DNA of 52,827 bases from Thermoproteales archaeon (GTDB lineage Archaea; Thermoproteota; Thermoprotei; Thermofilales; B69-G16): NCBI GenBank assembly GCA_021161825.1, contig JAGGZW010000095.1:1-52827 (forward strand). Direction: 5' to 3'. Each line of letters opens with the position of its first letter. Within the stretch, counting starts at the first letter, position 1. Position numbers and translations under genes: made by a program. Below the pieces are notes generated by a model. The model was not told where the DNA came from and ran no database searches. It saw nothing but the letters and a program-made list of their open reading frames with translations. Shown here piece by piece: positions 46,407 to 52,827 of the stretch.

Positions 46407-46673
46407 TTAACCTCCATTAGTTATTTGCCCCAATGTAGCATTATATAAAGCATCCAAATCATCGCCCAATATTTCTATCAAAAACTTATCTAGAGCACCT
46501 TCTGAGCTTTGATATGTTACTTTTAGTGTAGCTATAATATTTGACAGCAAAGACAGCAATATTATCATAGCTATAAGGCTTAAACCCAGCAGTAGTCCCT
46601 CTTCAACAAGCTGACTACCCTTATTATTTCTTAGTTTTCTCTCTAGCATTAATCGTCGCACTAACTCACTCAT
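46407..46673 (-). CDS. Type IV prepilin-like protein (class III signal)
   Basis: 88 aa from the preferred Met8 ATG (the frame opens at GTG 46694, overlapping the previous stop). The N-terminus has a basic leader ending RNNKG, then SQLVEEGLLLGLSLIAMIILL. Cleavage after Gly26 (numbering from the GTG start) would leave Glu at mature position 5, the hallmark of type IV pilins, followed by an uninterrupted hydrophobic stretch. The short mature domain (about 70 aa) resembles Flp/Tad-size pilins. Last and most pilin-like gene of the operon; a candidate major subunit. Confidence 0.7.
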   Translation of the reverse strand: MSELVRRLMLERKLRNNKGSQLVEEGLLLGLSLIAMIILLSLLSNIIATLKVTYQSSEGALDKFLIEILGDDLDALYNATLGQITNGG

Positions 46674-46690
46674 GTAATGAAAAATTGCTA

Positions 46691-47587
46691 TCACCAGCTT
46701 ATATGTGCATTAAAATATTTAAGATACCCTTCCTCCGTACAGTTCGAATAGGTAATATAGAAATTTAGAGTAGGAAATAACAAATAATGGATTTTTGCTA
46801 AATTCTCTTTAGCGTATAGATCAATTATTTTCAAGTTAAGCAGACACTTTAGCATCTCCCCTTTGCGCTCACAAGATACCGTATATTCTATTTTAACATT
46901 ATATTTTTTATAGATACAGATAATACTTTCCAAAAAGTTTTGCAACGTTGTACTGCAATTTAAGTTAAAACTTTTTCCATCAAGCCTGCTCGCTATTTCT
47001 TTGCCTATGCTGTAAATTTTGAAATAACATAAAGGTATGCATACAACTAAAGAGCTATTTCTTTGATAGCTTATTTCATGATTATTGTTGTCGTACTTGT
47101 ATTTTACACTGGCAAGACAGCAAACGGAACAGGACCTTGCAACATCATTTTTTATACTGTCCAATAGGAGAAAAATGTCGATTCTATTAAAATTCACATA
47201 CCTATACTCAGTTACTATTAATTTAGAGCAAAGTATTCTGATAGTTTCATTATCAGTTAACAAATATCTCCTTACAACTTGATCGTTTAAAATAATATCT
47301 AGTAGTTCAAAATATCGCTTATTCAGAATTTTTTCAATTTTGTTTTTAGGTAGTGCATTCGTAGCAGCAGTACTCATAACATCTGTAAAGACTTCGCTTA
47401 TCGCATTTCTTATAATATATTCTATATTTTTACATTTTCTATCTACGATCTTCAACAGCAAAACTTTTTCTTCCGTTTCGATATAAAATGATAATATCTC
47501 CAAATAAGCATATATCAGTGACACTATCAAAATGCTTATCAGTAGAACAGACACTGAGACAATAAATGCATTTTTATTCATGACCAT
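46691..47587 (-). CDS. Secreted or pilus-associated protein, Cys-rich
   Basis: 298 aa. After MVMNKNAF comes one N-terminal hydrophobic helix (about 8-33), then a large presumably extracytoplasmic domain with about 12 cysteines, including SCSVCC and VCIPLCYF, which could form disulfides. No other membrane segment. I do not recognise the domain. The short leader resembles minor pilins without a clear prepilin peptidase site. It overlaps the previous gene by 14 nt and the next gene's GTG by 4 nt. Candidate minor pilin or tip adhesin. Confidence 0.6.
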   Translation of the reverse strand: MVMNKNAFIVSVSVLLISILIVSLIYAYLEILSFYIETEEKVLLLKIVDRKCKNIEYIIRNAISEVFTDVMSTAATNALPKNKIEKILNKRYFELLDIILNDQVVRRYLLTDNETIRILCSKLIVTEYRYVNFNRIDIFLLLDSIKNDVARSCSVCCLASVKYKYDNNNHEISYQRNSSLVVCIPLCYFKIYSIGKEIASRLDGKSFNLNCSTTLQNFLESIICIYKKYNVKIEYTVSCERKGEMLKCLLNLKIIDLYAKENLAKIHYLLFPTLNFYITYSNCTEEGYLKYFNAHISW

Positions 47588-47924
47588 ACACCACGCTTAC
47601 CTTGACTATTTTTATTTTCCCATCATCAAACAAAAGCAAGTAGTTTTCGTAAACAAAACTTAATTCCTCTTCATTAACTGTTAGGAATTTGCAGGTTACT
47701 GCTTCAGAAGTATTCCATACACAGTCAAAATTTTCTAAGCGCATCTTATTCTCGAAAGTCTTTTGCAATAACTCTTTCATAACAGTCTCGCTTAATAATT
47801 CACGTTTCAGCAAGTCTTCGATAGCCATAAGCTGTCTAGTTTTTACTTCTGAATAAAATATAACAAGCAGTAAAGAAAAAGAACAAAACATCGCAAAAAC
47901 CATATCTACTAAATAAGCTCTCAT
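47574..47924 (-). CDS. Small N-terminally anchored protein (minor pilin-like)
   Basis: 116 aa with a hydrophobic N-terminus from residue 4 (YLVDMVFAMFCSFSLLLVIF), then an acidic, partly beta domain. This is the pattern of archaeal minor pilins that have only a very short leader. ATGA overlap with the previous gene indicates translational coupling. No domain recognised. Confidence 0.6.
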   Translation of the reverse strand: MRAYLVDMVFAMFCSFSLLLVIFYSEVKTRQLMAIEDLLKRELLSETVMKELLQKTFENKMRLENFDCVWNTSEAVTCKFLTVNEEELSFVYENYLLLFDDGKIKIVKVSVVYGHE

Positions 47925-48106
47925 GGCTTACTCACTAAAATTCTTTCAATGACTCGACTTATCATAACATTAGTTAAATTCCATGCAGTAATAATTAGCA
48001 CGGAAAGTATCATGAACAATATCAATATGATAGCAATTGCTATCGTAGATCCCCTGTTAGTTCTTCGGCATAATATTGACAATTCCACTTCTTTTCTCGA
48101 TGACAT
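47921..48106 (-). CDS. Small pilin-like protein with RG-type leader
   Basis: About 61 aa from the Met at 48106 (an earlier in-frame start at 48157 would overlap the previous gene by 101 nt). A basic leader ends CRRTNRG, then STIAIAIILILFMILSVLII, a typical prepilin peptidase site followed by a hydrophobic helix, but without Glu5. Almost no soluble domain follows. Still overlaps the previous gene by 50 nt. Confidence 0.55.
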   Translation of the reverse strand: MSSRKEVELSILCRRTNRGSTIAIAIILILFMILSVLIITAWNLTNVMISRVIERILVSKP

Positions 48107-48380
48107 ATTCTTCACCCAGTTCAAAGTTGCTGGAGCCCCAGCCACAAAAACTTTCAATATTCAAGAAACATTCTTCGATAGAGGGGAGCTTGACGTAAAG
48201 CCTGCCTCCTTCTGGCATTTCTTCAGCTGCATGACAAAGAATATTCTCCAATAGTATTCGCGGATAAACTATTGCCAGTTTTTCAGCTTCATGGCAAAAC
48301 TTAACAGTGATAATCAGCAGAAACATAAATAAAACGGACCATATCACTACTCCAAAATATTCCTCAACAATTTTGCTCAT
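48057..48380 (-). CDS. Small membrane-anchored protein (pilin/TadE-like)
   Basis: 107 aa: short acidic start (MSKIVEEYF), one hydrophobic helix (about 9-27), then a soluble domain with four cysteines and a CGWGSSNFELGEEYV segment. The acidic residues right before the helix and its place in the operon suggest a minor pilin of the TadE/TadG sort, without proof of homology. Confidence 0.55.
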   Translation of the reverse strand: MSKIVEEYFGVVIWSVLFMFLLIITVKFCHEAEKLAIVYPRILLENILCHAAEEMPEGGRLYVKLPSIEECFLNIESFCGWGSSNFELGEEYVIEKRSGIVNIMPKN

Positions 48381-48562
48381 GGAATTTTCACCTGACTTAT
48401 TTTAAGTATCAAAAAAATGAACTCAAGAAGATGTATCACGTATATAGGCAACGTAGCAACTAACACAATATAAGACAAAACTTCAACAACTTGTTCTTCT
48501 ATTATCCTTTTCATGTCATAAATAATGAGCATAGAAACATATAAGGGAAATATACGCACCAT
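48377..48562 (-). CDS. Small membrane protein, 61 aa
   Basis: Two hydrophobic stretches, the second long (VLSYIVLVATLPIYVIHLLEFIFLILK), separated by KRIIEEQVVE. Unrecognised. A later start at Met17 (48514) would leave one membrane helix preceded by an EEQ-type acidic leader. Overlaps the next gene by 4 nt. Confidence 0.5.
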   Translation of the reverse strand: MVRIFPLYVSMLIIYDMKRIIEEQVVEVLSYIVLVATLPIYVIHLLEFIFLILKISQVKIP

Positions 48563-48626
48563 AAATTAAGTTAATAAACTACAAACTCTTATACGTTCGA
48601 ACTAAACTTTTTAAAACTTCAATTTT

Positions 48627-49856
48627 TTAGATCTTCCTCGTCACAAATTCTAGACAAAACATCGTCAAGAAAGCAAATATGATGTTTATTACCATATATT
48701 TCATCATATCACTTTTCCCATAGGAGATGCTGATTTTATATGAAAAGATAATTTGGAAGTATTGGAAAATAACAATAAAGAAAATTATGTCAAATCCCCT
48801 ATTTTCGAATATGGATGCTAAGGATAGTATTATTGACACAACCAATGAAGATATGCATTGTATAATTTTTGACCTGAACTCTAAAATTTTAATTTTGTGA
48901 CAAAAATTCGCTATAAGAGTTCTGCTATTACGAAACATGGTAAAGACTGTCTCAATATTATATTCAACCTCTTCTAGGTCTGCGTTGCTATAAATCATAC
49001 TTAAACCTTTCATAATGTTATTATCCGATTTAAGCCCATGTCTTTTTAAAAATATCCAGTTCGCTGCCTCTTTTTTGGCATAATTCTTTTCCTTCAAGTA
49101 AACTTTAACAAATTCTCGGGTTGCATATTCAAGATTAAATCCTTTTTTTATGTATTTCATTAGCCATGAAAGTAGAGATTCTAAGTGCTTGCTGGTATCT
49201 AGCAACTCTTTGCATAAATCTTTTTCATTCATATTTTTTGTCCAAAAGTAATACGTAATAAACATTGAGGAAACTATAACTGCCAAAATTTTACCGATAA
49301 ACATGCCCTGATAAAGCAAAGCAAGACAGAATCCGCTTATTACCGAAAGTAATAGACCCGGAATTGCAATATTTACTTCTAAGACATTATAGCGAAAAGA
49401 TGGTATAAAATTGTATAGGATCATTAAGGATATAGCCATAAAGAGAGAGCCTTCAAAAAAATTTATCATATTGAAGAAAACCGCCAAAGCGATTATGGTT
49501 GGAATAAACGATTTTATTCCAATAATTATTGTTAGCTTATCCTCAAGTTTCGCTATATTGCTTTCTAGTGTGATCTTGAACTTATTAAATAATCTTAAAG
49601 GAATTTTCTTGATTTCTCCTAGCGGAAACTCTAAGGATTCCAGAAGTAAAACTATTTTTCGATCATCTACAACATTATTCGTTCTTAACGTCTTTCTCTG
49701 ATGTCTGAGAGAAAAACTTAGTTTCAGTAAATCTTCCTTCCATAATTCCATCGCCAAATCTCTTATGGCGCGGCTTGCATTACATCCCCTTGACAAATAA
49801 AAAATAACGTAAAGAACGACTTCCTTAATAGACTCTAGAAAACTGAAAATTTTCAT
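48627..49856 (-). CDS. GspF/TadC-like pilus or secretion assembly membrane protein
   Basis: 409 aa with about six to eight hydrophobic segments in two groups (about 110-215 and 330-405), separated by a large cytoplasmic helical section with ELLDTSKHLESLLSWLMKYIKKGFNLEYA. That central region and repeated layout resemble type II secretion F domains of archaeal pilus systems. Overlaps the ATPase gene by 32 nt. Sequence identity to known families looks low, so the call rests on topology plus position beside the ATPase. Confidence 0.65.
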   Translation of the reverse strand: MKIFSFLESIKEVVLYVIFYLSRGCNASRAIRDLAMELWKEDLLKLSFSLRHQRKTLRTNNVVDDRKIVLLLESLEFPLGEIKKIPLRLFNKFKITLESNIAKLEDKLTIIIGIKSFIPTIIALAVFFNMINFFEGSLFMAISLMILYNFIPSFRYNVLEVNIAIPGLLLSVISGFCLALLYQGMFIGKILAVIVSSMFITYYFWTKNMNEKDLCKELLDTSKHLESLLSWLMKYIKKGFNLEYATREFVKVYLKEKNYAKKEAANWIFLKRHGLKSDNNIMKGLSMIYSNADLEEVEYNIETVFTMFRNSRTLIANFCHKIKILEFRSKIIQCISSLVVSIILSLASIFENRGFDIIFFIVIFQYFQIIFSYKISISYGKSDMMKYMVINIIFAFLTMFCLEFVTRKI

Positions 49857-51750
49857 TTATTAATTCCCCTATTTTCCTTAAAATTAGTTTGTGTGATTTA
49901 ATGTGATCATCAGCACTATATGCTTTAAATATCTCTTTTACCTTTTCTATTAAGAGAATTATCTTGTGCATCGGAATCTTGTTTTCCAGAGATAGTTTAT
50001 TAATTGTTGTTGATTTTTCGAGGGGGGTAACGCGTTTTAGGATATCATCCTTGTTTCTCGCATACGCAAGAGAAAACATAGTTAGGGGATTGCCGCAACT
50101 TTCAGATTTACTTTTTTCGTAAATGAAAGTTACCTTCTTTTTATCCTTTCTAAGAAGATCCCGTTTCATGAAAACTATAACATCGATACTTGACAATAAC
50201 GTCATAGGGATATCAAATATTTTTACAAATCTTAATACTAACTGCTCTAAATTTAGCGCATGAGTAGTTTGTATACATTTAATTCCTGCATTCATTGCTT
50301 GAAATGCAGCTATTACGTGCTCTCTATGTTGTAGCTCACCCATTATTACATAGTCTGGTTTCCTATGGAGTATTTTAATGGTTTCATCTATCTTGCTTGA
50401 TCTGCTATATTGACTTCTTTCTAATGAGCCTACGCGTAATCTGAGTTGATGGTAGCCTTTATCCAACTGTTTTATGGATTCTACTACATCTTCAATGTAG
50501 ATTTTTCTATATATTTTGGGAAGCATAATATCTATTGCATTGAGGAGTGTAGTTTTACCACTGCCCGGTTCTCCACTTATCAATATATTTAATCTGAAAA
50601 AGGCTGCGATGAAAAGAAAGGCTGCTGCCTCGGCAGACAATGTACCCAATTTTATGAGTTCAGGTATGGTAAATGCTTTTTTCCTATACTTTCTAACATC
50701 TATTGAAATGCCGTCAATTGCAACTGGAGGAGCATCAATAGATACTCTAACCTTGAACATCTTTGTTATATAATCAGTCTTTAGAGATGGTGAGGAAAAG
50801 GAAATAAAATTTCCTGTATCCATTTTTATATGTGTTAGAAAGACCTCTAATTCCTTTTTTGATAAAGCTATATTAGATCTACATCTTCCATAGATTTCAT
50901 GGTCAAGATATATGTTGGTGTTAGGAGCATCTTGGTAGAACTCTTGAACTCTATCGTCAAGCAAAAAAGGCATTATTCGGGTAACCTTCAGAGAACAAAA
51001 AGTCGAAAGATAAGCCAATTTTTTGATTTTTTCTGTAGAGAGCAGTGATAGAACATCAGGACAAAAATTCTCGGCCAAATAACGGAAGATTTCTAACCTA
51101 TGGTCAACTATTTCATCAAATTCTGAAACCGCAACTTCCTTTAGATAACGTCTCCTATCGTACTCGATCATAATATCACCTAGGCTTTTATAGCAAAAAA
51201 TCACGTCAACCAGATCTGTGAAAGGCTTCACGTAATATCTGTCTTCGTAGTCCGGCGATTCTGTTATTTTTATATTATAGCAATAAACATTGTAATTTCT
51301 CCTTACCTTGCGTCTTTTACCAATATTATCATTCTTAACACTCTCGAAAGCCCGATATTCCATGATCGTCAAGGCTTTTTGAAAAGACAACACTAGCTTC
51401 TGTATATGTTTAGGGAGAGCTTTTAATAAGCTACTTAGCTCAAAATTATTTTCTATCAACTCATTAAGAAAAAAATAGTTTCTATTATCGAAAATGGCTT
51501 CATGTCTCAAATTGTAAATGTATCGCGAGATAGGGATAACATAATTTTTTATTAAATTACTGTTAACTACTAACTTTTCTTTACCGTTTAATAAAAGAAT
51601 TACTCCTGAAATATTATCTGTGAAGGATTTCTTAAGAGAGAATATTCTAACCAGGAAATTATAGACGTTCTCACAGTTTTTATCGTAAATGAAACTTCCA
51701 GCTTTTTTAAAAGCTTCATCTTCTTCTTGTATAAAGATTGTACCAAGCAT
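49825..51750 (-). CDS. Type II/IV secretion system ATPase (GspE/VirB11/TadA-like)
   Basis: 641 aa. A long N-terminal region without clear motifs (about 330 residues), then the secretion ATPase core: Walker A GEPGSGKTT (393-401), Asp box IEDVVES (419-424), Walker B DYVIMGELQH (about 466-475) and His box TTHA (495-498). Most relatives read GE(V/I)RG after Walker B; here the arginine is glutamine. The protein powers assembly of a pilus or secretion filament. Five nt after the TFB gene. Confidence 0.88.
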   Translation of the reverse strand: MLGTIFIQEEDEAFKKAGSFIYDKNCENVYNFLVRIFSLKKSFTDNISGVILLLNGKEKLVVNSNLIKNYVIPISRYIYNLRHEAIFDNRNYFFLNELIENNFELSSLLKALPKHIQKLVLSFQKALTIMEYRAFESVKNDNIGKRRKVRRNYNVYCYNIKITESPDYEDRYYVKPFTDLVDVIFCYKSLGDIMIEYDRRRYLKEVAVSEFDEIVDHRLEIFRYLAENFCPDVLSLLSTEKIKKLAYLSTFCSLKVTRIMPFLLDDRVQEFYQDAPNTNIYLDHEIYGRCRSNIALSKKELEVFLTHIKMDTGNFISFSSPSLKTDYITKMFKVRVSIDAPPVAIDGISIDVRKYRKKAFTIPELIKLGTLSAEAAAFLFIAAFFRLNILISGEPGSGKTTLLNAIDIMLPKIYRKIYIEDVVESIKQLDKGYHQLRLRVGSLERSQYSRSSKIDETIKILHRKPDYVIMGELQHREHVIAAFQAMNAGIKCIQTTHALNLEQLVLRFVKIFDIPMTLLSSIDVIVFMKRDLLRKDKKKVTFIYEKSKSESCGNPLTMFSLAYARNKDDILKRVTPLEKSTTINKLSLENKIPMHKIILLIEKVKEIFKAYSADDHIKSHKLILRKIGELINENFQFSRVY

Positions 51751-51755
51751 AATCG

Positions 51756-52691
51756 TTAAGGTTCAAGCATTTTGTACACGAACTTAATATTGTTACGTAT
51801 CGCGCTGAGCGAGAAACCAAATTTTCTAGATAAATAACCTTGGCTAATTGTTCTATTTCCACAAACTTGTATGAATGCGATGTATATAAAAGCAAGGGCA
51901 AGAATGTGAGGATTTTTACCCTGAAGTCTTCGAAAATCTATCATATAAAGAAGTTTTCTCGCTTCTTTGAAAACTTCCTTTTCAAGCGTATAGATATTTT
52001 TTGCATTAATATTTCTTGTAAATAACCTATCGAGAAATATTTTTCTTAATATCAGTGATATGATCTTTTCAGTTCTATCTCTCACGCTCACAAGTCCGTA
52101 TATTCTTTCATGTTGTAACATAGCTATAGCCTCTAGCAAATTAGACCGCGTAACTCTATGGCCCAAACTCTGATATATTTCTAGGACTTTGTTTATAGTA
52201 ATGTTAAAACCATTAGCTCTGATAGCTGCTATGAGACATGCCGCCGAGAGCCTGTAATGGTTTATCTTTCCATAGTACCCAATGTCTCTAATCCTTTTTA
52301 GCATTTTAGTATAAAGAATATAGGCATGTTCCACCATGTAACGAGGGAGCCCTAATTTTTCCACGACAATGATGAGAGTCTTGTGTACTCTATATTGCAT
52401 CGACCTATCACCAGTTGCTTTAGAATACAAATTTAACTTGCTAATTCTTTTCAACTTCCTTAAAAATGCCGGTCTTACAGCTTCACAATTATGAGTAATC
52501 GATGGCGCCAAGAAAGTTCCCAACTCTAGTGGCTCTGGAACATACCCCCGCGTAAAAATTCTATTTTTGATAAAAGATTGTTTACTTAACAACAGGTTTT
52601 TATTATGAACTAAGCCACACCTGCTACAAACACTCTCTCCCTCGGGGTTTAGCACTAGTTCTCCTCCACATTCAATGCATCTACCAGGCAT
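51756..52691 (-). CDS. Divergent transcription factor B (TFB) paralogue
   Basis: 311 aa. N-terminal zinc ribbon CIEC...CSRCG (Cys5, 8, 22, 25), then a B-reader/linker region lacking the usual W-rich motif (NKNLLLSKQSFIKNRIFTRG instead), and two cyclin folds (about 95-200 and 215-310). The second ends SQGYLSRKFGFSLSAIRNNI, resembling the TFB recognition helix TQREIAEVAGVTEVTVRN. Probably not the housekeeping TFB. First gene of the pilus-like operon, 5 nt before the ATPase. Confidence 0.85.
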   Translation of the reverse strand: MPGRCIECGGELVLNPEGESVCSRCGLVHNKNLLLSKQSFIKNRIFTRGYVPEPLELGTFLAPSITHNCEAVRPAFLRKLKRISKLNLYSKATGDRSMQYRVHKTLIIVVEKLGLPRYMVEHAYILYTKMLKRIRDIGYYGKINHYRLSAACLIAAIRANGFNITINKVLEIYQSLGHRVTRSNLLEAIAMLQHERIYGLVSVRDRTEKIISLILRKIFLDRLFTRNINAKNIYTLEKEVFKEARKLLYMIDFRRLQGKNPHILALAFIYIAFIQVCGNRTISQGYLSRKFGFSLSAIRNNIKFVYKMLEP

Positions 52692-52717: not shown

Positions 52718-52734
52718 ATTAGTTTTTAAATCAT
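52718..52734 (-). promoter_or_regulatory. Putative promoter of the TFB/pilus operon
   Basis: Minus-strand CATGATTTAAAAACTAATG contains the only TATA-like element between the TFB start and the right end. Initiation about 25 nt downstream would fall near 52700, giving a leader of about 10 nt. Confidence 0.5.
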
Positions 52735-52827
52735 GAAGGTAAGATCTTACCTCCCGGGGGGGGGGGGTCATTTTTGGGCCCCTTTAATTACGGATCGTTT
52801 ACTAATGATTTTTTATGAAAAAGCTTA
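52735..52827. other. Right-end non-coding sequence with an 11-G run
   Basis: No gene seen. It has a near-palindrome TAAGATCTTA flanked by GG and CC, then CCTCCC followed by 11 G, then a G/C-rich then AT-rich tail ending at a HindIII site. The long G run is foreign to the surrounding composition and may be an assembly or sequencing feature. Confidence 0.5.

Follow-up and report, generated by a model that had tools for sequence, protein, structure and literature searches.

The nine-gene operon on the minus strand at positions 46407-52691 of contig JAGGZW010000095.1 (assembly GCA_021161825.1), from a Thermoproteales archaeon, probably encodes a minimal, divergent type IV pilus (T4P)-like machine together with a dedicated transcription factor B (TFB) whose promoter specificity has changed. 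The whole contig of 52,827 nucleotides (nt), here called the window, is numbered C95 in a 1.67-Mb metagenome-assembled genome (MAG) that is 96% complete; L, G and f below are our handles for loci, genomes and families. A first-pass annotation had proposed a T4P-like operon with its own TFB, and comparison with related genomes supports that proposal: TFB and ATPase are paired at 36 loci, the two proteins fall into matching clades, the last gene belongs to a prepilin family with Glu5, and the promoters of the system carry a distinctive B recognition element (BRE) in four families. All nine minus-strand open reading frames (ORFs) of that annotation were found at the coordinates it gave, and with two upstream elements they are arranged as follows.

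51756-52691, minus strand: TFB paralogue, 311 amino acids (aa), with zinc ribbon, two cyclin repeats and C-terminal helix-turn-helix (HTH); first gene (family profile against PDB TFIIB; tree)
49825-51750, minus strand: T4P/secretion ATPase, 641 aa, Walker A motif GEPGSGKTT intact (PF00437; GspE2/FlaI/CpaF profile)
48627-49856, minus strand: divergent TadC/GspF-like polytopic membrane protein, 409 aa, fused form (6-8 transmembrane [TM] segments; hhalign)
48377-48514, minus strand: small single-TM protein, about 45 aa (L046 homologue beginning MRRIVEESLVEII)
48057-48380, minus strand: N-terminally anchored protein, 107 aa, quartet position-2 family (phmmer to L046; hhalign)
47921-48106, minus strand: small protein, 61 aa, class III-like site RTNRG^ST, no Glu5 (L046 equivalent KDKG^SSLIIAMMTLFVF)
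47574-47924, minus strand: N-terminally anchored protein, 116 aa, quartet position-3 family (hhalign)
46691-47587, minus strand: largest secreted-type protein, 298 aa, quartet position 4 (phmmer to L046; position)
46407-46694, minus strand: putative Flp-like prepilin, site NNKG^SQLVEEG, Glu5 (17-member family)
52723-52730, minus strand: TATA-like box TTTAAAAA ahead of the TFB gene, BRE CTTCATGA not G-rich (same promoter in L047)
52756-52767, minus strand: poly-C tract of 12 nt lying upstream of the TFB promoter (G002 has one of 11 nt at that place)

The genes are tightly packed, with 5 nt between the TFB and ATPase genes, an overlap of 32 nt between the ATPase and TadC-like genes, and serial overlaps of 4-50 nt among the small genes. 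The sole real gap in the operon lies between the TadC-like gene and the first small gene and measures 64 nt to the first ATG, or 112 nt if the start MRRIVEESLVEII..., which is backed by the relative in L046, is used. Comparison with relatives suggests later starts for two of the small ORFs: the 61-aa ORF at 48377-48562 more likely starts at 48514, so that its protein begins MKRIIEEQVVEVL..., and the 78-aa ORF at 47921-48157 more likely starts at 48106, giving a protein of 61 aa with the sequence RTNRG^STIAIAIILI.

We surveyed 151 genomes, the window's own and 150 relatives, and found the close ATPase subfamily (E below 1e-45) in 30 of them, from 15 families. Gene maps of these loci place a TFB gene next to the ATPase gene or within about 4 kb of it, and the pair occurs at 36 distinct loci in Thermoproteota, plus one Asgard MAG. 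The TFB-linked ATPases, 37 rows from 36 distinct loci in a tree of 72 ATPases, all group in a single clade, apart from 30 unlinked T4P ATPases, with a Shimodaira-Hasegawa-like approximate likelihood ratio test (SH-aLRT) value of 100; for the five unlinked rows that lie within the linked clade, the contigs end before the expected position of the TFB gene. The linked TFBs are likewise split from 16 canonical TFBs by one branch (SH-aLRT 100), and their subgroups broadly match those of the ATPases. Both trees were quick ones with long branches, and their inner order is uncertain. The gene set described in the first-pass annotation is thus not broken up by chance in related genomes; its genes are found together again and again, in dozens of genomes, which is far beyond chance. 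The pairing of TFB and pilus machine is ancient.

The chromosomal site is also conserved. In Thermoproteaceae- and Thermocladiaceae-like genomes, which we take to be those of Pyrobaculum calidifontis, Thermoproteus tenax and Vulcanisaeta distributa, a triad of TadC-like protein, ATPase and TFB lies between a thermosome gene and the genes for Rpo8, Lsm and TGT. The pilin-bearing loci of other families are flanked by the same thermosome and Rpo8/Lsm/TGT neighbors, and the window locus also terminates at a thermosome gene. Given that Rpo8, Lsm and TGT adjoin the TFB gene in many loci, the TFB might be a mere bystander, linked to the pilus genes only through its site among transcription and translation genes. 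We regard this as very improbable, as the linkage persists where those neighbors are gone or rearranged (L047 and L050), is kept on an Asgard contig too, with a TGT-like protein nearby, and involves a separate TFB clade that is in step with the ATPase and accompanied by a distinctive BRE at the pilus promoters. The Asgard contig belongs to Candidatus Sifarchaeum (L197, 5954-11258), in which the TFB gene lies 1.1-2.7 kb from two TadC halves and the ATPase, with the TGT-like protein between them; a second ATPase/TadC copy is present on L083. It was the one useful match from a contig scan with the ATPase alignment, which was otherwise swamped by one generic Walker A pattern, and its origin may be descent, transfer or mis-binning.

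In most relatives the locus has a fuller form, in which two divergent units are present and the TFB gene stands apart from both. One unit is a quartet of anchored proteins; in the other, the ATPase gene is accompanied by genes for small coiled-coil-like proteins, both TadC halves, the pilin and a HerA-like ATPase. In the genus of the window, the quartet genes follow the TadC-like gene in line. The first-pass annotation had singled out the TFB at the head of the operon as unusual. This order is indeed particular to the window's nearer relatives and to reduced forms, but the association of a TFIIB homologue with T4P loci is itself already known (PMC4858521).

The ATPase matches PF00437 at 1e-22, above the cut-off, and in profile searches it matches GspE2, FlaI and CpaF. 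Residues G393, G398, K399, T400, E472 and H497 are invariant, so that the locus encodes a GspE/VirB11-type assembly ATPase with intact motifs, as in an archaeal type IV pilus system. No Pfam match was found for the 409-aa membrane protein of the window. In hhalign comparisons it matched the two-gene TadC halves of relatives with probabilities of 95.6% and 73%, and it is probably a fusion of these two halves. Assignment to TadC is weaker: some of the relatives' halves match T2SSF at E values of 0.003-0.004, below the cut-off, and against a reference set of four T2SSF proteins the hhalign probability of these halves was at most 10%. A single-sequence fold of the protein was discarded (predicted local distance difference test [pLDDT] 41).

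The product of the last gene belongs to a family of 17 members with the site [KR][AG]^S[PQ]L[IV]EEG, in which E5 and E6 are invariant. It therefore combines the class III cleavage site with Glu5, and the pilin-type site seen in the first-pass annotation is borne out by all 17 orthologues. The family profile gave only noise-level matches against the PDB, with no significant match to a solved Flp or other pilin. That annotation had also called for a genome-wide search for a prepilin peptidase, and the window's own genome encodes one A24 peptidase (G000:C113; PF01478 above the cut-off). In L067 (1459-3056) an A24 prepilin peptidase gene adjoins the linked TFB gene in divergent orientation.

None of the six small proteins has a significant match in Pfam or NCBIfam, and their relationships emerge from comparison with other loci. 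The 107-aa protein matches L046 (phmmer, 9e-12) and the position-2 family of other lineages (hhalign probability 75, E 2.6e-5, with cross-position controls reaching at most 1.3), and the 116-aa protein matches the position-3 family (probability 80, E 1.4e-5). The 298-aa protein matches L046 (phmmer, 1e-38), and outside the genus its assignment is backed by position and N-terminal pattern (hhalign 7%). The 61-aa protein is conserved in L046, where the site reads KDKG^SSLIIAMMTLFVF.

The window's TFB is itself divergent. Matches to PF08271 and PF00382 are weak and below the Pfam cut-offs for the single protein, and the TFB family profile matches TFIIB in the PDB at E=1e-21. All four zinc-ribbon cysteines (C5, C8, C22 and C25) are present, as are both cyclin repeats and the C-terminal HTH, and a single-sequence model of modest quality (pLDDT 62) matches the TFIIB fold at E=8e-7. 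Together, profile, cysteines and model put it beyond doubt that the protein is a TFB, predicted to act as an initiation factor. In 27 genomes, the family profile scored the TFBs of the system at E values of 1e-46 to 1e-98 and canonical TFBs at 2e-37 at best.

In four families the promoters of the system differ from those of other genes in the same genomes. Control promoters have an A-rich BRE before the TATA box, whereas a G-rich BRE, defined as at least three G among the last four positions of the element, is present at 10 of 17 divergent promoters of the system, compared with 4 of 312 same-genome controls, and at 9 of 18 pilin promoters. Fisher tests on the divergent promoters gave 5e-12 with a narrow window and 2e-8 with the TATA box allowed further away, values that overstate the independence of the data because the counts include related genomes. 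The G-rich BRE is clear in families f8, f11, f20 and f30. In f8 and f11, RGGGGYTTAAAT is alike at all three promoters within one genome; in f20, TTGG(C/T/A)G lies ahead of the TATA box, and the same element is found at the pilin promoter of f30. In G027 and G030, RGGGGYTTAAAT is found at the promoters of unit A, unit B and the pilin gene. It has 6 matches genome-wide in G027 and 9 in G030, of which those at promoter distance (about 35-50 nt) belong to this locus and the rest lie inside genes or are wrongly spaced, with L191 unclear. The L191 site (G030:C18) was not counted as a regulon member: the motif AGGGGTTTAAAT lies 149 nt upstream of a 230-aa cyclin-like ORF (1667-2359) with a weak match to the TFB profile, possibly an extra regulator.

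The linked TFB would be the reader of these G-rich promoters. Alternatively, the G-rich sequence could be a weak BRE that silences the genes until some activator binds, the linked TFB not being its reader. A precedent exists in Methanococcus maripaludis, where the archaellum promoter requires the activator EarA and a deletion within its BRE bypasses this requirement (PMC5512572). We consider a silencing BRE rather unlikely here, in that the motif coincides exactly with the BRE and, though alike across three promoters within a single genome, differs among lineages, as expected if it co-evolves with the TFB. The promoter of the TFB gene itself is not G-rich, which is also expected if a canonical TFB starts the cascade. 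In the window, one weak G-rich candidate ahead of the first small gene is not conserved in L046 and was rejected.

Ahead of the TFB promoter of the window, 12 consecutive C end about 25 nt from the TATA box. In G002 (L047, 2718-2728), 11 C stand at the same place and are the sole C10 run of that 1.5-Mb genome; the window's own genome has only four C10-type places. The contigs of the window and of G001 end near the tract. It could be a slippage-prone (phase-variation) switch or belong to a hairpin that terminates the gene upstream. By eye, a tRNA ahead of the TFB gene in L047 seemed to account for the tract, but ARAGORN did not confirm it.

In at least 16 loci (e.g., L053, 10819-12741), the pilin gene is followed by one for a HerA-like ATPase that combines two N-terminal TM helices with a HerA core and is possibly a DNA or protein translocase. 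The system might accordingly be a DNA uptake or exchange apparatus, in which a T4P-like filament works with this membrane-anchored translocase under its own TFB and of which the window's genome keeps a reduced version. By analogy with Sulfolobales, where TFB3 co-regulates ups, ced and herA (PMC9905601), this is a serious possibility, if one that we hold to be on balance doubtful. Against it, a search of the window's genome found no orthologue of the HerA-like ATPase, its only close HerA being the canonical one beside NurA, Mre11 and Rad50; no CedA/VirB6-like channel was recognized; and HerA-like ATPases can also pump proteins or have other roles. Adhesion or DNA handling would be the candidate uses of the filament. 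The HerA-like ATPase gene is missing from the window, so that DNA handling is no more likely there than adhesion or secretion.

Known systems resemble the locus in part. To our knowledge, the TFB3 of Sulfolobales is not encoded within a pilus locus. It shares with the linked TFBs the tie between a TFB paralogue and pilus-type genes (the Ups, Ced and HerA regulon). TFB3 differs in being a DNA-damage activator that acts in trans (PMC9905601). The Ced and Ted systems are similar in that relatives of the window locus encode a HerA-like ATPase near a short pilin, but they consist of VirB4, VirB6 and VirB2 homologues with no GspE-type ATPase (PMC9905601), and among the nine window genes none of this VirB set, neither a VirB4/HerA-type ATPase nor a VirB6-like channel, was recognized. 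Bacterial Flp/Tad pili share a small pilin with G^S(A)xxxE, a TadA-type ATPase and a two-half TadC-like platform; unlike them, the present locus was found to have neither TadZ nor a secretin.

The closest described relative is subclade 4D of Makarova et al. (2016), who reported TFIIB homologues at T4P loci, arCOG01981 in many of them and arCOG05559 in subclade 4D (PMC4858521). This subclade, from Pyrobaculum and Thermoproteus, comprises an ATPase (arCOG05558), a TadC-like protein and the TFIIB homologue arCOG05559; its authors called it "most unusual," knew of no pilins for it and proposed a role related to transcription (PMC4858521). A search of the available literature for arCOG05559 found no other paper naming it. 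The ATPase and TFB of subclade 4D belong to the same clades as those of the present system and occupy the same chromosomal site beside the thermosome gene. Subclade 4D differs in lacking pilins and secreted proteins; its ATPase is shortened, and its TFB has a single cyclin repeat. In the window, by contrast, the ATPase is full-length, the TFB (311 aa) has two repeats, and a prepilin with Glu5 is present along with five more small anchored proteins. If what Makarova et al. suggested for subclade 4D applied here, the system would be no pilus at all and the T4P-derived ATPase/TadC pair would have been repurposed for a transcription-linked membrane process, in keeping with the adjacency of Rpo8, TFB and ATPase and the missing pilin gene in Pyrobaculum and Thermoproteus (PMC4858521). 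We think this unlikely: same-site loci of many families, the window included, have the E5 prepilin and the quartet of anchored proteins, and the pilin-less forms look like reductions. The tree and the shared chromosomal site suggest that subclade 4D is best read as a reduced orthologue of the pilin-bearing system.

Several further points weigh against a pilus machine with a dedicated TFB of changed specificity. The evidence is comparative. The G-rich BRE is absent or unclear in f10, f12, f14, f18, f37, f39 and the window's genus, and in the window the TFB gene heads a single operon, where a separate TFB-dependent promoter is not needed. The linked TFB of L053 (2884-3801) has no zinc ribbon, though that locus keeps its G-rich promoters, and the linked TFBs of Thermoproteaceae are short of one cyclin repeat; the factor may therefore not act as a full TFB everywhere. 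Membership of the TadC family depends on the relatives and not on the window protein itself. A narrower idea is that initiation factor and promoter element have co-evolved into a private code, in which a TFB clade passed on together with a single pilus machine reads a changed BRE at that machine's promoters only and the element has drifted from lineage to lineage (some with GGGG, others with TTGG(C/T)G); we see the chances of this as evenly balanced.

The pilus-like machine with its own TFB could work as follows. The TFB paralogue would be made from an ordinary promoter and, with TATA-binding protein (TBP) and RNA polymerase, would recognize the pilus-gene promoters, whose BRE would have changed along with the factor (to G-rich in several lineages), so that the pilus genes would be switched on as one regulon, much as by an alternative sigma factor. 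The small E5 pilin would be cleaved by the only A24 prepilin peptidase of the genome and built into a filament by the ATPase and TadC-like platform, and the N-terminally anchored small proteins may serve as minor pilins or form a tip complex. The locus of the window's genus has collapsed to one TFB-headed operon without the membrane-anchored HerA-like ATPase of most relatives.

Archaea often have several TFBs, and it has long been asked whether single ones act like alternative sigma factors, each with a promoter sequence of its own. One TFB lineage tied to one machine, with a distinctive BRE across distant families, would provide natural matched pairs of factor and promoter. An origin would be supplied for subclade 4D, the puzzling form without pilins in the cultured organisms Pyrobaculum and Thermoproteus, and the system would define a widespread, uncharacterized pilus family. 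Overall, the system is real, conserved and little studied, and the pairing of factor and promoter would be notable if confirmed.

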